IMG/VR virus record: IMGVR_UViG_3300044701_000575
Coordinates: 1-24,642 of that record
Source: a virus
Length of the DNA stretch: 24,642 bases
Strand: one strand, 5' to 3'
Under the pieces are notes generated by a model. The model searched no databases. It was given only the letters and a program-made list of their open reading frames with translations, and was not told where the DNA came from. Shown here in pieces: positions 1,208 through 7,142 of the stretch. Each line of letters opens with the position of its first letter. The stretch's first letter is position 1. A program made the translations under genes and the position numbers.

Positions 1208-2122
1208 TTAAAATGGTACTGCTTCCTGCTTATCTTTATTATACACTCTTACCCAATGGTTGTCAAAGTCGTTGCTTTGTCTGGGATATACACGGGCAGA
1301 GTATGGGGTGTAGCACATACAGTCTTGCCATGTGCTCATACATGACATACACGTGTCACAGTATTGGCATACTTCTGCTGACAAGTCTACGTCAATGAGT
1401 GCTTCACAACTAGGACACATATCTATGACTACCTCTTGGTCGTTAGCGAGCAGCAACTCATTGTAATAAGTCTGCTCGGCATCATAGTCTGAGTCCGTGT
1501 ATGATTTGGTGGTGGTAGTGGTGGGTGTATAGGTTGTCTTGTATGTAGATGTGTACGTTGTACGCTTGTGGCTACTGTTAGACCACCATACACCATGCTC
1601 GTCCCATGTACCTAGATGTTCGTTGATTAGGTACAGTTGGTACTGTGCTTTTGGATTAGTCGTGAGTACCGCTATCTTATTACCGGTAGCCCACGCTTCT
1701 ATCATGCGGTAGATATTGGTATCCTCTAAAGCAAGGACACCGCCGAGTCTAGGTAAAGTATCCTCGGCAAAGACACGCGTATCGCTACGCTTGTCATGCT
1801 TGTCGATAAAGGTATCTAGTACACCATTGTGTGCTAGTACTGTATCGGTATCGTCACCCACTTGGAACGGGTGACAGTTAGCCTCATTTTTTACACCATG
1901 CGTAGCATAGCGGGCATGCCAGATAGCATAGCCGTGAGGATTTTGTTGGCGCATGTGGATAAACTTAGACACGGCTTTGCGAGCAGACATGGTACGATAA
2001 CGGAAAATCTTGCCGTCAATTACCATAGCGAACCCGTAGCCGTGTGGATTAGCACACGCGCCGGCTGTAAGTTCCTCTCTCTTTGGTATAGAGTTAGGCT
2101 TACAGACAACTAATAGACACAT
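1208..2122 (-). CDS. Class II (Ntn-hydrolase) glutamine amidotransferase with C-terminal zinc ribbon
   Basis: 304 aa. The start is set at the ATG of MCLLVVC, because class II amidotransferases need Cys2 as the N-terminal nucleophile after Met removal. This ATG also has a TTAGGGGGTG ribosome site and removes a 62-nt overlap with the upstream gene that a longer ORF would create. Family motifs seen: NPHGYGF (25-31), HARYATHG (69-76), HNG (98-100) and SDT (113-115). The family releases ammonia from glutamine and passes it to a partner synthetase. A Thr-rich linker (about 188-208) leads to a Cys-rich tail with C236/C239, C252/C255, C258/C261 and C268/C270, probably binding zinc. The gene directly upstream, 11 nt away, is a predicted amidoligase, the expected ammonia acceptor. 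Substrate unknown. Confidence 0.85.
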   Translation of the reverse strand: MCLLVVCKPNSIPKREELTAGACANPHGYGFAMVIDGKIFRYRTMSARKAVSKFIHMRQQNPHGYAIWHARYATHGVKNEANCHPFQVGDDTDTVLAHNGVLDTFIDKHDKRSDTRVFAEDTLPRLGGVLALEDTNIYRMIEAWATGNKIAVLTTNPKAQYQLYLINEHLGTWDEHGVWWSNSSHKRTTYTSTYKTTYTPTTTTTKSYTDSDYDAEQTYYNELLLANDQEVVIDMCPSCEALIDVDLSAEVCQYCDTCMSCMSTWQDCMCYTPYSARVYPRQSNDFDNHWVRVYNKDKQEAVPF

Positions 2123-2126
2123 ACAA

Positions 2127-2137
2127 CACCCCCTAAG
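2127..2137 (-). promoter_or_regulatory. CTTAGGGGGTG element, ribosome site of the amidotransferase
   Basis: The 11-mer CTTAGGGGGTG lies just upstream of the MCLLVV start codon and decides the start at 2122. It resembles an extended Shine-Dalgarno (TAAGGAGGTGAT with one wobble position). The identical 11-mer precedes two other genes of this operon. Confidence 0.65.
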
Positions 2138-3356
2138 CGTTGAGTAGTGGTCGGTTATCAAGGTTAGTGCTAGGCACTTTTGCCATACGCACATATAAGT
2201 TGGGGTATAAGCCGTTGTTGCTGGCTACCCAGTCGGCGAACCACTCCCAACTAAGCATGCCTAACTTAACGTCAGACACGCTCAAGTCGCGTGTGTACTC
2301 GACCGCAGCGTGAGTAAGTTCAAGGGCAGACATAACACCCTCTCGCTTCATGTTGCCTCTAAAGAAGCGCAACTCTAGTGTGTGTTCATTGTTGGTATTA
2401 ACCGCGCTATATCTCTCGTTGGCTTGAAACCCATTAGGTCTGACTTTGTGGCGTACTGTAAAGCGTGGTATGCCATAGTCATCATGTAGGTACACGTCAT
2501 TGAAGGTAGCATAGCGGTTAGCCTTACGACCCCCTAGTTTAGACATCTCTCTAGGGTTTTGATAAATCATGCGGATAAATCTGTGGATATGTGCGCCAGA
2601 CTTGAACGCGTTGCGAGATACATGGACATGTAGCCCACAACTATTGGTATCCCATGAGCGTGCTTCGTACTTGTCGCGCAACTGCTCAATGGTATCCCAT
2701 AAATCTTTGGCATGCTCATAGGCATACAAGGTATGCGGGTGAGTCACTAACTCAAAGCCGCGCCCGTTGATACTGCCGTCATGCTTAAGGTATGCCGTGC
2801 GTGTGTCTGATAGTATGCGGGTACTCTCTACTGCTTGAGCATACTCAGAGCCGGTGATGCGGTTGAGTTCCATTTCCAACTCGAACCCCATAAACAAGCC
2901 GTGCTTATCTATGCCGTGAAACTCTGGGTCTGGCTTGTAGCGATAGTCTTGAACTAACTCGTTAGTAAAACCGCCGTCACAAGTATAGCAATTCTCATCA
3001 GAGTCGTAATACTCGTCACAGTCCTCGCAAAAGTTTGCGCTATGCTCTAAGCAATATTCGCACCAAGTATAGTCACCTACGCGGGCATTACTGTATCGCC
3101 TAGCGTTGATGTGCTCGTCACACCTATCGCAGTAAAAACTGTCGTTTTCGTAGCATGCTTGACACCAACTCTCGCCGGATACTGTGTACCAATCGTCATT
3201 ACTCATGCCGATATTGTCACAATGCTCACAAGTACAGATACAGTCAGAGCATACCCACGCCTCATAGTGCGTGAGGTACATGTTGTCCTCTGTATCCTCG
3301 TTGTGGCACGACTGACAGGATACCATATCCTCTGTCGTGTCCTCGTTGTCTATCAT
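2133..3356 (-). CDS. Amidoligase-family (glutamine-synthetase-like) enzyme with N-terminal zinc-ribbon array
   Basis: 407 aa from the ATG at 3356; a GTG two codons earlier abuts the ribosome site TTAGGGGGTG and is unlikely. The first ~130 residues hold eight CxxC pairs (C14/17, 36/39, 43/46, 65/68, 76/79, 99/102, 110/113, 123/126), read here as four zinc ribbons in tandem. The rest matches the predicted amidoligase superfamily (COOH-NH2 ligases with glutamine-synthetase-like fold): GFELEMEL at 157-164, KHDGSI then GFELVTHP at about 191-207, CGLHVHVSR at 240-248, and an AVN..HTLELRFFRG segment near 315-335. Family enzymes are predicted to form amide bonds using ATP. The next gene is a glutamine amidotransferase that could supply ammonia. 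The fold is a motif-based call; substrate is unknown. Confidence 0.8.
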   Translation of the reverse strand: MIDNEDTTEDMVSCQSCHNEDTEDNMYLTHYEAWVCSDCICTCEHCDNIGMSNDDWYTVSGESWCQACYENDSFYCDRCDEHINARRYSNARVGDYTWCEYCLEHSANFCEDCDEYYDSDENCYTCDGGFTNELVQDYRYKPDPEFHGIDKHGLFMGFELEMELNRITGSEYAQAVESTRILSDTRTAYLKHDGSINGRGFELVTHPHTLYAYEHAKDLWDTIEQLRDKYEARSWDTNSCGLHVHVSRNAFKSGAHIHRFIRMIYQNPREMSKLGGRKANRYATFNDVYLHDDYGIPRFTVRHKVRPNGFQANERYSAVNTNNEHTLELRFFRGNMKREGVMSALELTHAAVEYTRDLSVSDVKLGMLSWEWFADWVASNNGLYPNLYVRMAKVPSTNLDNRPLLNA

Positions 3357-3359
3357 AAT

Positions 3360-3370
3360 CACCCCCTAAG
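3360..3370 (-). promoter_or_regulatory. CTTAGGGGGTG element, ribosome site of the amidoligase
   Basis: Second copy of the CTTAGGGGGTG 11-mer, followed by ATT and the ATG at 3356. The run TTAGGGGGTGATT resembles TAAGGAGGTGATC, the full anti-Shine-Dalgarno complement. It supports the ATG at 3356 over the GTG at 3362. Confidence 0.65.
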
Positions 3371-3690: not shown

Positions 3691-3719
3691 AGTATATCAC
3701 ACCCCCTAAGGCGTGTCAA
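3691..3719 (-). promoter_or_regulatory. Sigma70-type promoter abutting a start codon
   Basis: Minus-strand TTGACA (3714-3719), 17-nt spacer, TATACT (3691-3696). The -10 box touches the ATG of the 66-aa gene (3690), so transcription from it would begin inside that codon region. The spacer contains the CTTAGGGGGTG element (3700-3710). Either the promoter drives only downstream genes, or the box is fortuitous and the element is used as a ribosome site on a longer transcript. Confidence 0.55.
3700..3710 (-). promoter_or_regulatory. CTTAGGGGGTG element, third copy
   Basis: Third identical copy of the 11-mer, here within the spacer between a TTGACA and a TATACT box and 9 nt before the ATG of the 66-aa gene. 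It may act as a ribosome site or as an operator. Confidence 0.5.
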
Positions 3720-3736
3720 GTGCGGTATTTCCGCGT

Positions 3737-3782
3737 GTCGCGCTAGGGTCTTGAACCCTCGCACCCGTTAGGTGTGCGCGAC
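3737..3782 (-). other. tRNA-like structured element lacking D and anticodon arms
   Basis: Read on the minus strand, a perfect 7-bp closing stem (GTCGCGC with GCGCGAC) encloses a CACC/GGTG hairpin and a T-arm-like hairpin AGGG-TTCAAGA-CCCT with a canonical seven-base T loop. Five bases lie between the T loop and the 3' closing strand, as in a tRNA T stem (4 paired plus one G-A mismatch). Only 15 nt replace the D and anticodon regions, so it is not a normal tRNA. It lies between the 54-aa gene and the promoter of the 66-aa gene, and a further small hairpin (3722-3734) follows. It could be a degenerate tRNA, a processing or stability element, or a chance multibranch fold. Confidence 0.4.
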
Positions 3783-3789
3783 TTACTAT

Positions 3790-3954
3790 CTAGTGCCCTT
3801 GTAGTCCTGCTAGGCGTGTCTGCTTGTTGGCGGGTCGTAGGTCTGCCCGTGCTAGGCGTACCTTCTGCCCAAAAATCTCTCGCTTGTCCTGCCTATCTAG
3901 AGCGCGGTTAAGTCGCTCATAGTGGGCAAGTATTTCGTCTAGTCGTGTCGCCAC
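3790..3954 (-). CDS. Hypothetical basic helical protein, 54 aa
   Basis: Short ORF starting with GTG, preceded by an AGGGGG ribosome site 6 nt away. The product is Arg/Lys-rich and predicted almost wholly helical (TRLDEILAHYERLNRALDRQ then KVRLARADLR), ending LQGH. It lies 12 nt downstream of the 109-aa gene and in the same direction, so it is probably co-transcribed. No family recognised; the charge suggests nucleic-acid binding or a small coiled coil. Confidence 0.6.
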   Translation of the reverse strand: MATRLDEILAHYERLNRALDRQDKREIFGQKVRLARADLRPANKQTRLAGLQGH

Positions 3955-3966
3955 GGCTACCCCCTA

Positions 3967-4296
3967 TTACTTGTCGTGGATATTGAACCCTTGCGCTATC
4001 GGTTGAGCGTTAGCGCGGAGTTGTGCTAGTATAGCATTTTCTTGTGCCTCTGTCAAGTCGGGTTTAATCGTACGCTCGCCAGACATAACAACCTTGTAGG
4101 TGCGCTTGTGTAGGCGTACTACTTGCCCATGAACAAGCGGTGCTACTGTGCGTGTGTTGCCATGCTTGTCGGTGATAGTCACCGGTGAGCATACAGCACC
4201 CGTTAAGTTTAGGTTGCGCTTACCCCACGGGCGACTAGCCCGTATTGTAGGCGGTGTCATTACGATACTACCCGACCCATGATAAACACGGGTCAC
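3967..4296 (-). CDS. Hypothetical protein, 109 aa
   Basis: First gene of the leftward operon. It starts with GTG behind GGGAGAAGG (4-nt spacing) and a near-consensus promoter. The middle reads as beta strands with basic residues (GAVCSPVTITDKHGNTRTVAPLVHGQVVRLHKRTYKVVM), which may be a small barrel. A helical tail follows (LTEAQENAILAQLRANAQ). No family recognised. Position next to the promoter array suggests an early gene. Confidence 0.65.
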   Translation of the reverse strand: MTRVYHGSGSIVMTPPTIRASRPWGKRNLNLTGAVCSPVTITDKHGNTRTVAPLVHGQVVRLHKRTYKVVMSGERTIKPDLTEAQENAILAQLRANAQPIAQGFNIHDK

Positions 4297-4329
4297 TTTA
4301 CCTTCTCCCTTCTCTAACTTGTTGAGCCA

Positions 4330-4358
4330 ATTCTAGCATGTCTAACCTTGCTTGTCAA
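4330..4358 (-). promoter_or_regulatory. Sigma70-type promoter P1 (leftward operon)
   Basis: Minus-strand TTGACA (4353-4358), exact 17-nt spacer, TAGAAT (4330-4335). It lies about 35 nt before the GTG of the 109-aa gene, so it is the proximal promoter of the leftward genes. Confidence 0.8.
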
Positions 4359-4484
4359 GTAGGCGAGGGTTTCGGCGTGTCGGTCAATTTCGGCGTAATA
4401 CTCACGGGCGACCCGTTGCTACTAAGTATCTAATCGCGGAAATCAAAACCTATTTCCAAAACCCTCTATTTACTTGTTGCGCCT

Positions 4485-4512
4485 ATTCTAGCAGATTTCT
4501 TGAACTTGTCAA
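4485..4512 (-). promoter_or_regulatory. Sigma70-type promoter P2
   Basis: Minus-strand TTGACA (4507-4512), 16-nt spacer, TAGAAT (4485-4490). No convincing gene lies between it and P1, so a transcript from it would carry a ~190-nt leader or encode a small RNA. Confidence 0.65.
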
Positions 4513-4571
4513 GTCCTGCCTATTTCGGCGTGTCTTGTTTATCCTTGTCGGATAACTTGATGACGGGAAGA

Positions 4572-4600
4572 ATACTACACCATAACCCTAAGCGTGTCAA
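4572..4600 (-). promoter_or_regulatory. Sigma70-type promoter P3
   Basis: Minus-strand TTGACA (4595-4600), 17-nt spacer, TAGTAT (4572-4577). The spacer begins CGCTTAGGG, shared with the promoter at 3691-3719 (CGCCTTAGGG), suggesting a duplicated or co-regulated promoter. Confidence 0.6.
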
Positions 4601-4646
4601 GTTTCCCCCACGCTCAAAAATTGTGAATTAGGTCACACAGAAAACT

Positions 4647-4662
4647 CTCAGGAAACTCCCAG
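4647..4662. repeat. CTCAG box pair, 11-bp step
   Basis: CTCAG at 4647 and the variant CCCAG at 4658, 11 bp apart with the same GGAAACT filler seen in the larger array at 4878-4954. The pair lies just downstream of the P4 start point, where a bound protein could block transcription. Confidence 0.6.
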
Positions 4663-4675
4663 AATTAGGGCGGGC

Positions 4676-4704
4676 ATTATACCATGAAACCCGCAACTTG
4701 TCAA
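4676..4704 (-). promoter_or_regulatory. Perfect-consensus sigma70-type promoter P4
   Basis: Minus-strand TTGACA (4699-4704), 17-nt spacer, TATAAT (4676-4681), an exact match to the bacterial consensus and the strongest promoter in the window. It is the outermost of four leftward promoters; CTCAG boxes lie at its predicted early transcribed region. Confidence 0.85.
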
Positions 4705-4877
4705 GCACCTAGCAATTACGGAGTGTCTAGACATAACCGACACAATAGACCAATAGGGCAAAACGGACACCCACCGGAAACCTATCGAACACTTGTACTA
4801 ATCGGACATAAGGGGCAAATACTTTTATTTAGGGTATAGGGGGCGATTTATAACAAGTCGGGCAGATAGTCAGTACC

Positions 4878-4954
4878 CTCAGAAATCTCTCAGATAACAC
4901 TCAGATAACCCTCAGGAAACTCTAATACTCAGGAAACTCTCAGGTAATTCTCAG
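4878..4954. repeat. Iteron-like array of CTCAG boxes at 11-bp period
   Basis: Seven CTCAG boxes start at 4878, 4889, 4900, 4911, 4928, 4939 and 4950. All steps are 11 bp except one of 17 bp. Fillers are similar (ATAACA, ATAACC, GAAACT, GTAATT). About one helical turn per unit means sites on one face of the DNA, as in iterons bound by replication initiators or in cooperative operator arrays. It lies in non-coding DNA between the leftward promoters and the AT-rich block. Confidence 0.75.
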
Positions 4955-4984
4955 TTTGACCCCACGCCTATTAAACTGCTGTGC

Positions 4985-5034
4985 CCCGGCCGTGGTAGTC
5001 TCACCCTAAAATTTTCTGTTATAAGTAGGCCGGG
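4985..5034. repeat. Inverted repeat CCCGGCC...GGCCGGG
   Basis: Seven-base arms at 4985-4991 and 5028-5034 separated by 36 nt that include an AAAATTTT palindrome. It could form a long-looped stem in RNA or be a dyad binding site. No gene is visible between 4297 and 5273. Confidence 0.4.
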
Positions 5035-5089
5035 TATATAAAATTCGGACAAATCAGGACATTATACCCTGAAAATATAAATATATTAC

Positions 5090-5124
5090 GGAAACCTGTT
5101 CGGTTTCCAGATTTGAACAGGTTT
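5090..5124 (+). promoter_or_regulatory. Pair of mutually exclusive hairpins, attenuator- or terminator-like
   Basis: GGAAACC (5090-5096) pairs with GGTTTCC (5102-5108) with a 5-nt loop. Alternatively AAACCTGTTC (5092-5101) pairs with GAACAGGTTT (5115-5124), a perfect 10-bp stem followed by T-rich DNA. The two share bases, so only one can form. This is the layout of an attenuator, or of a bidirectional terminator, upstream of the terminase operon. Confidence 0.5.
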
Positions 5125-5216
5125 TCTATATATGTAATAATAATTCCATATATAGAGCGAGCTTCGCTCTACGGCTCGCTCGCTTATATAATATTATATA
5201 TAATATATAATATATA
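5125..5216. other. AT-rich block around a competing GC hairpin; candidate unwinding or promoter region
   Basis: Nearly pure A/T sequence (repeated TATAAT- and ATATAT-like runs at 5125-5153 and 5185-5216) flanks a GC-rich core. In the core AGAGCGA (5154-5160) pairs with TCGCTCT (5164-5170), or GAGCGAGC (5155-5162) pairs with GCTCGCTC (5174-5181). Such DNA melts easily. It may be a DNA-unwinding element of an origin, given the nearby iterons, or contain late promoters for the structural genes; no clear -35 box was found on the plus strand. Confidence 0.45.
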
Positions 5217-5228
5217 TGGGGATGTACT

Positions 5229-5246
5229 GCCCGTTATCTGACGGGC
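5229..5246 (+). promoter_or_regulatory. Hairpin upstream of the terminase ribosome site
   Basis: GCCCGT (5229-5234), 6-nt loop, ACGGGC (5241-5246), followed by GTTATT. It ends about 28 nt before the terminase ATG. There is no long T run, so a leader hairpin is as likely as a weak terminator. Confidence 0.4.
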
Positions 5247-5273
5247 GTTATTACTGTGATTTTAAGGGGTATA

Positions 5274-7142
5274 ATGGGACGCAAACCAGGCAAGGTAGAT
5301 ATACCTATGGCCGAGGCTAAGGAGCGGGTGCTCCAGCAGCTGAGCCAGGGGGCTACCATTACCGGTGCCATGGCATCCGTGAATCGTAACGAAGTTACCT
5401 TCCGGCAATGGTCCCTGAAGGACCCAGAATTTAAACAACGAGCCGATACCGCCCGCCTAGAAGGCAAGGGCGTCAAGGCTGACTTGAAGAACCTAAAGGA
5501 TATCTCCTTTGAGGAGTTCTCTGAGCAGTTCCTAGACACCAAGCTCTTTGACCATCACAAGGATTGGGTCGACTTGATTGAGGGGCGCGAGCCCCGCTGG
5601 ATGCATCCGGCTATGGTGTACGAGCCAGGGGCGGCCAACCGCGTCCTGATTAACGTACCACCCGAGCACGCTAAGTCCACAGTCATCACGATTAACTACG
5701 TGACCTACCGACTAGCTGTAAATCCAAATGTACGCATCATTGTAGTCTCTAAGACCCAGGGCATGGCCCGCAAGTTCTTGAGCGCAATCAAGACCCGACT
5801 TTCCCACCCAAACTGGATTAAGCTCCAGACGGCCTTCGGCCCGAATGGTGGATATAAGGCAGATTCACAGACGTGGTCTGCCGATATGATTTACCTCGGC
5901 TCTGGCCGAGATTCAGGAGAGAAGGACCCAACGGTTCAGGCTCTCGGTTTTGGTAGCCAAATCTATGGCGCTCGCGCCGATTTGATTATCCTCGACGATG
6001 TTGTGATGAACTCAAACGCCCATGAATGGGAGAAGCAAATTGAATGGCTTCAGAAAGAAGTCATCACACGCTTAGGACGACACGGGAAACTACTAATCGT
6101 AGGGACCCGTGTTGCTCCGGTAGATTTATATAAAATGATTCGGGACGGTCAGCAATGGACCGGTGGCAAATCTCCGTTTACCTACTTTGCCCAACCAGCT
6201 GTATTGGAATTTGATGAGAAACCTAAGAATTGGAAAACCCTTTGGCCGTGGACGGACAGGCCCGAAGGTGAGAAAGATGAAGCAAATGAACAAGGACTAT
6301 ACCCCAAATGGGACGGGGGAGCTCTCTTCACTAGACGAAGCGAAGTGGCGCCTTCTGTCTGGGCAATGGTATATCAACAAGAAGACGTCGTCGAAGACGC
6401 AATCTTTCCGCCAGCAGCAGTTGCAGGATGTGTCAACAGTATGCGAAAGCGCGGACCGCTTAAGCCAGGTGCTCCGGGTCATCCCAAGAATTTAGAATCA
6501 ACCTATACGGTTATTGGTCTAGACCCTGCGATGACGGGGAACACGGCAGCGGTGGTCTTGACATATAACCGTGCTGATAGCATGATTTATATTTTAGATG
6601 CTATCAACATGACTGACCCAACACCTATGAAGATTCGTGCCCTGATTGAAGAATGGGTACCAAAGTACAAGCCTCAGGAATTACGAATTGAAATCAACGC
6701 ACACCAGAAAGCATACGCACTCGACGATGAACTACGAGGCTGGCTCTCGATGTACGGCTGTCAGCTTAACTCTCACTTCACTGGTAAGAATAAGTGGGAT
6801 ACTAGCTTCGGTGTGGCTTCTATGGCAGGTCTTTTTGGCACTCTTAGAGATGGAAGATTCCAAGACAACAACATAATTGAACTGCCTTCTAACGAAGGTA
6901 GTGAGGGACTTAAGGCTCTTGTTCAGCAACTAATCACTTGGAAGCCTGACACAAGAAACGCAACAGACTGCGTGATGGCTTTATGGTTCGCAGTGATTCG
7001 TGTACGCGAGCTAATGCAACAGAGTTCCCAGTCAGCCAAATGGATGCAAAACCGTTGGGCTACTAGAGCACAAACAGAGAGACGATTCTCGATTAACTTA
7101 GATGAAGCTATTGCTGAGCAATGGCAACAAACTTACGGATAG
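5274..7142 (+). CDS. terL: Terminase large subunit with N-terminal helix-turn-helix
   Basis: 622 aa, the DNA-packaging motor. The start is the ATG at 5274 behind AAGGGG (4-nt spacing); an in-frame GTG at 5256 has no ribosome site. ATPase domain: Walker A-like PPEHAKST (129-136), Walker B LIILDD (237-242), coupling motif VGT (276-278). Nuclease domain: acidic residues D417 in VIGLDPAMTG, E473 in RIEIN and D565 in TDCVMALWF, the expected metal-binding triad. Residues ~14-58 look like the helix-turn-helix of small terminase subunits (GATITGAMASVN..VTFRQW...DPEF), and no separate small subunit gene precedes it, so recognition and motor functions may be fused. It opens the structural operon, 7 nt before the portal gene. 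Confidence 0.93.
   Translation: MGRKPGKVDIPMAEAKERVLQQLSQGATITGAMASVNRNEVTFRQWSLKDPEFKQRADTARLEGKGVKADLKNLKDISFEEFSEQFLDTKLFDHHKDWVDLIEGREPRWMHPAMVYEPGAANRVLINVPPEHAKSTVITINYVTYRLAVNPNVRIIVVSKTQGMARKFLSAIKTRLSHPNWIKLQTAFGPNGGYKADSQTWSADMIYLGSGRDSGEKDPTVQALGFGSQIYGARADLIILDDVVMNSNAHEWEKQIEWLQKEVITRLGRHGKLLIVGTRVAPVDLYKMIRDGQQWTGGKSPFTYFAQPAVLEFDEKPKNWKTLWPWTDRPEGEKDEANEQGLYPKWDGGALFTRRSEVAPSVWAMVYQQEDVVEDAIFPPAAVAGCVNSMRKRGPLKPGAPGHPKNLESTYTVIGLDPAMTGNTAAVVLTYNRADSMIYILDAINMTDPTPMKIRALIEEWVPKYKPQELRIEINAHQKAYALDDELRGWLSMYGCQLNSHFTGKNKWDTSFGVASMAGLFGTLRDGRFQDNNIIELPSNEGSEGLKALVQQLITWKPDTRNATDCVMALWFAVIRVRELMQQSSQSAKWMQNRWATRAQTERRFSINLDEAIAEQWQQTYG

Follow-up and report, generated by a model that had tools for sequence, protein, structure and literature searches.

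A 24,642-base stretch of viral DNA (IMG/VR record IMGVR_UViG_3300044701_000575, positions 1 to 24,642; hereafter the window) carries a row of short CTCAG boxes, spaced at about one helical turn, at the point where its leftward and rightward genes diverge. Which protein might read these boxes: a replication initiator, a switch protein of the phage, or a regulator supplied by the host? The window is apparently a fragment of a freshwater actinophage of ~40 kb, as suggested by its WhiB gene and by relatives that measure 39-40 kb at full length. Its terminase shares 78% identity with that of LanE43-AprE7 and LanE43-AprF5, the two cultured phages of Ca. Planktophila (PMC10202952).

The box array and its control region

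The array sits between leftward genes (WhiB, GATase-like and amidoligase-like) and rightward late genes headed by terL. The features to which we refer are the following:

1208-2194, minus strand: glutamine-amidotransferase (GATase)-like gene, leftward, beside the array
2133-3362, minus strand: amidoligase-like gene, leftward, beside the array
4622-4637, plus strand: CRP-type palindrome TGTGAATTAGGTCACA, abutting the outpost; the sole perfect match in the window
4636-4668, plus strand: outpost, with CACAG at 4636, CTCAG at 4647 and CCCAG at 4658, in 11-bp steps
4676-4704, minus strand: P4 promoter, a perfect sigma-70-type promoter (TTGACA-17-TATAAT, 12/12 consensus matches)
4878-4965, plus strand: main array, seven CTCAG boxes at 4878, 4889, 4900, 4911, 4928, 4939 and 4950
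4955-5023, plus strand: rigid late module, with TTTGAC at 4955, TATTAAA at 4969-4975, TCTCACCC at 4999-5006 and TTTTCTGTTATA at 5012-5023
5089-5247, plus strand: terL leader; it contains alternative inverted repeats and, at 5228-5247 before terL, a hairpin like an intrinsic terminator
5256-7142, plus strand: terL, with which the late genes downstream of the array begin (phrog_38, E 9e-67)

A preliminary description of this locus reported seven CTCAG boxes at 4878-4954, in 11-bp steps with one 17-bp exception, and all seven are exact matches at those positions. The repeating unit of the main array is TCTCAGg followed by 4 bp, with a period of 11 bp (steps of 11, 11, 11, 17, 11 and 11). It is the arrangement of the boxes that is unusual, and not the frequency of the word, because CTCAG occurs 66 times in the whole 24,642-base window against 65.4 expected. 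When the 1.9-kb non-coding region was shuffled 200 times with its dinucleotide composition kept, neither four boxes running at 11 bp nor seven boxes per 80 bp ever appeared (0/200); the best results were a run of three and a cluster of four.

The 17-bp step rotates the last three boxes by about a quarter to a third of a helical turn from the first four, and the main array is therefore made of two same-face blocks, one of four boxes and one of three. From the same-face spacing, cooperative binding of one protein had been proposed; the repeat geometry still suggests such binding, but on two blocks and not on a single same-face array. Similarly, the outpost, described as two boxes at 4647-4662, does exist, but it comprises three boxes, beginning with CACAG at 4636. 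It occupies the region in which the P4 transcript would begin, its boxes starting ~14 bp past the P4 -10 element on the downstream side. From the outpost CTCAG to the first box of the main array the distance is 231 bp, or 22.0 turns at 10.5 bp per turn, a whole-turn distance that would fit looping between the outpost and the main array and that may also have arisen by chance.

The main array lies directly upstream of the rigid late module, whose elements (TTTGA...TTAAA...TCACCC...TTTCTGTTATA) keep a gap-free, constant spacing in nearly all relatives, array-less ones included. The module at 4955-5023 is probably the late promoter region, and it may be a late promoter recognized by the phage sigma factor that relatives are reported to have. 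Since the module is also found in array-less relatives, the array would modulate it and not be required for it.

Further elements crowd the same region. Six near-consensus leftward TTGACA promoters lie within 1 kb (3691-4704, minus strand), five of which score 11 or 12 of 12. A further position of interest, after the CRP-type palindrome, is ~4787, and relatives also carry CGAAC-N4-GTTCG palindromes, like actinobacterial LexA sites. The control region may be a collecting point for the sites of several host regulators. On the late side, the terL leader (5080-5247) contains two sets of inverted repeats, AACCTGTTC/GGTTT/GAACAGGTT and GAGCGAGC/TTCGCTC/GCTCGCTC, the repeats of a set being mutually exclusive. 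With the terminator-like hairpin that follows, they could provide attenuation or antitermination; no Rfam match was found for this leader.

Boxes and regulators in the inferred host

The array consists of direct half-sites with an 11-bp period, each a 7-bp motif plus a 4-bp spacer, which is the layout of a PhoP-type (OmpR/PhoB) operator. A search of 21 phage records revealed no OmpR-type DNA-binding domain, and the ligand is therefore probably not a phage copy of that family. A two-unit pattern search of bacterial genomes led to Planosporangium, in which the boxes occupy the gap between a response-regulator/kinase operon and a gene that diverges from it. Across 61 Micromonosporaceae genomes, three-box CTCAG arrays were found at 13 sites, versus one for the reversed pattern, and several of these arrays precede OmpR/PhoP-type regulator genes (Planosporangium; loci L462, L466 and L467). 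The phylum-wide three-box search returned about as many matches as its reversed control and is by itself no evidence. Matches in Gardnerella were discarded, as they belong to a dispersed repeat whose left flank does not vary. Several contigs of a Paceibacterota bin (L306, L308 and L310) carry CTCAG-N-AAACT arrays with an 11-bp period.

The candidate host order is actinobacterial, with genomes of mostly 1.0-1.9 Mb, a GC content of 41-48% in most sampled loci, and rhodopsin; from these traits we infer that it is Ca. Nanopelagicales. A PhoP-type response regulator was present in 153 of the 201 genomes of this order. One array stands directly before the regulator gene, which is followed by a histidine kinase gene, and CTCAG-N6-CNCAG at exactly 11 bp was found in 49 of 50 promoters of the regulator gene, other spacings giving counts of 0-3. 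The phage boxes thus have the half-site and the spacing seen in the promoter of this host regulator gene. The preliminary description had proposed, as one of its readings, a repressor array next to P4, and the arrays probably do serve promoter control there. The host promoters usually hold two boxes, followed by a -10 element after 7 or 10 bp. No consistent -10 distance was found after the phage arrays, where this 7/10-bp geometry is not regularly repeated, and activation at the classical distance is therefore unsupported.

The boxes could also be bound by another host regulator of the OmpR family whose site overlaps that of the PhoP-type one. Planosporangium and a relative have the array before a less similar regulator (L312/L466), and related regulators can therefore share the box. 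Within the inferred host order, however, it is at the PhoP-type gene that the box is conserved, and we regard binding by such a second regulator as improbable.

To score the window with host information only, we built a weight matrix from 48 host promoter sites and zero phage sequence. The seven best matches in the window (4938, 4646, 4927, 4899, 4888, 4877 and 4635; 26.8 to 14.4 bits) all belong to the array and the outpost, the outpost scoring 24.4 at 4646 and 14.4 at 4635, and the eighth best match reached just 10.2 bits. Shuffled windows contained a mean of 0.33 matches above 12, with a maximum of 3.

The closest PDB match of the host regulator is PhoP of M. tuberculosis, with 62% identity over 227 residues. 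The crystal structure of the latter shows a tandem dimer on TCACAGC-N4-TCACAGC with a strict 4-bp spacer, and the protein binds three and four repeats cooperatively, with higher affinity (PMC4832192). The operator in this structure (5ED4) and the phage array share 11-bp tandem half-sites composed of a 7-bp motif and a 4-bp spacer, and the regulator gene itself bears boxes. The phage array differs in having TCTCAGg in place of TCACAGC, in its seven to ten boxes, and in residing in a phage. Its half-site is thus not identical to the M. tuberculosis consensus, departing from it at position 3 and usually at position 7, and the host promoters share this departure. The mismatch would weaken an assignment to M. 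tuberculosis PhoP itself, and not one to the PhoP-type regulator of the host. In the recognition helix, the Asn that contacts four bases in M. tuberculosis PhoP is replaced by Gly in the host regulator, and a Ser by Thr. These changes could account for the altered half-site, and given the Asn-to-Gly replacement the fine specificity of the M. tuberculosis protein is not transferable.

Conservation among relatives and competing readings

We found 80 relatives by terL and scored 57 upstream regions with the host-derived matrix. Scoring sites were present upstream of terL in 35 of the 57, whereas none of 476 control windows taken from these loci scored. The arrays of the relatives lie ~300-500 bp upstream of terL; their copy number and flanks vary, and their position is kept. 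The preliminary description had named loss of the period in close relatives with conserved flanking DNA as an outcome that would speak against the array, and the period was instead retained through these changes in copy number and flanks. Where complete genomes were examined, CTCAG pairs were confined to this place, and in some relatives the arrays are reversed and face the leftward genes. The array is absent here from E7 and F5, the two cultured Planktophila phages of the wider family, a point against an operator for a host regulator.

The same comparison bears on the proposal that the repeats are iterons of a replication origin beside an AT-rich unwinding element, an architecture that the preliminary description had also read into this region. 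The direct repeats do adjoin an AT-rich block, and the cumulative GC-skew minimum lies near 5 kb. However, the sign of the skew tracks gene orientation and is unchanged in array-less genomes, and no scoring site was found at this place in 22 of the 57 relatives. Neither the presence of the box in all close relatives nor a site-dependent skew switch, as an iteron origin would show, was observed, and the boxes match those in the promoter of a transcription factor gene of the inferred host. We consider an origin at this array highly improbable. Iterons of 11 bp are also known from the parC-type partition centromere of plasmid R1; such a centromere would have parM/parR-type genes beside it, and the neighbors identified here encode terminase, amidoligase, GATase and WhiB.

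A phage-encoded early-to-late switch protein, acting as a repressor or an activator and sharing the host's box, would be expected to have sites next to the strong leftward promoter and also next to the late module, and the arrays are so placed. The arrays also track the phage gene set, being present in 16 of 16 loci with GATase/amidoligase genes versus 1 of 11 without them (Fisher p ~1e-6, a value inflated by shared ancestry). We nevertheless give this reading little credence: the 21 records contain no OmpR-type domain, inspection by eye revealed no obvious DNA-binding protein among the clade-specific families, the host regulator's own promoter has the identical box and spacing, and CTCAGGAAACT arrays occur in other phage groups as well. 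The p4 protein of phi29 illustrates a switch of this type; it is phage-encoded, binds inverted repeats, represses early promoters and controls the late promoter from intervening sites. A single protein with sites between early and late promoters is also what we propose here, except that the ligand is probably the host's.

The array might also act as a sink, in which ten sites per replicated phage genome titrate the host regulator and mute the host response. Its boxes outnumber those in the host promoters examined, and copy number differs among relatives while position stays constant, both of which a sink would accommodate. A sink would not, however, need a fixed place beside promoters and the late module, and many relatives carry just 3-4 boxes; we find this explanation unlikely.

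A predicted operator for a host PhoP-type regulator

Taking the motif comparisons together, we think it likely that the CTCAG boxes serve as operators to which a host protein binds cooperatively, namely the PhoP-type response regulator (OmpR/PhoB family) encoded by freshwater Ca. Nanopelagicales, the inferred host order. Each box would represent one 7-bp half-site, TCTCAGg, with its 4-bp spacer, and the regulator would line up in head-to-tail stacks along four and then three boxes of the main array, and along the three boxes of the outpost. After phage entry, the phosphorylated host regulator would bind the array cooperatively. From the outpost it would block the strong leftward P4 just past its start, and from the main array it would determine how active the neighboring late module before terL is, and tune the late leader. 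The early/late control region of the phage would in this way respond to whatever signal the host kinase senses. As to the direction of the effect on the late genes, either activation or repression would be a guess.

More tentatively, it is possible that in phages of these very abundant freshwater actinobacteria the central early/late region is under the control of a conserved host two-component regulator, that lytic timing follows the signal of the host kinase, and that array length tunes the threshold, or titrates the regulator, between phage lineages. If this is true, the core infection programme, and not accessory metabolism alone, would read host physiology via up to about ten boxes. The array would also provide a testable binding motif for the PhoP-type regulator of Ca. 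Nanopelagicales, which are dominant and hard-to-grow lake bacteria, and shared regulatory sites would offer a route for linking metagenomic phages to their hosts.

Cyanophage Pho boxes, as in P-SSM2 pstS and in S-PM2d genes, are used by the host PhoB (PMC10976474); they are phage-borne sites for a host two-component response regulator, as the array proposed here would be. Those boxes belong to single genes (auxiliary metabolic, hypothetical and replication genes) and to phosphate limitation, whereas here a large array lies in the divergent early/late region of an actinophage, before terL, and a PhoP-type regulator is predicted. Host two-component regulators that drive individual cyanophage genes are known, and the present locus would be a variant with an array at the early/late control point. 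The cyanophage study found box prediction alone to be unreliable for phage Pho boxes (PMC10976474).

Other actinobacterial sites can be compared with the array. The PHO box bound by Streptomyces PhoP, composed of GTTCACC direct repeats, has the identical 11-bp geometry and another half-site, and GTTCACC-type PHO boxes were not seen in the window. The MprA box consists of 8-bp repeats with 3-bp spacing. A site for Streptomyces CutR was rejected, the CutR motif being TAWATAAA (PMC12802291). Among the relatives, GTTCAYC-type 11-bp repeats, which resemble actinobacterial PHO boxes in the minus-strand reading, occur in the control region of L004, L016, L018, L033 and L102, and in L004 and L102 they share the register of the CTCAG boxes.

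Searches of viral contigs with a four-box pattern and with TGAAC returned many matches that were unrelated simple repeats, and only matches whose unit or context agreed were used. Four TGAAC boxes at 11-bp steps are present in at least 120 stretches of viral contigs (L172-L251), many of which have the unit GTTGAACGNNC.
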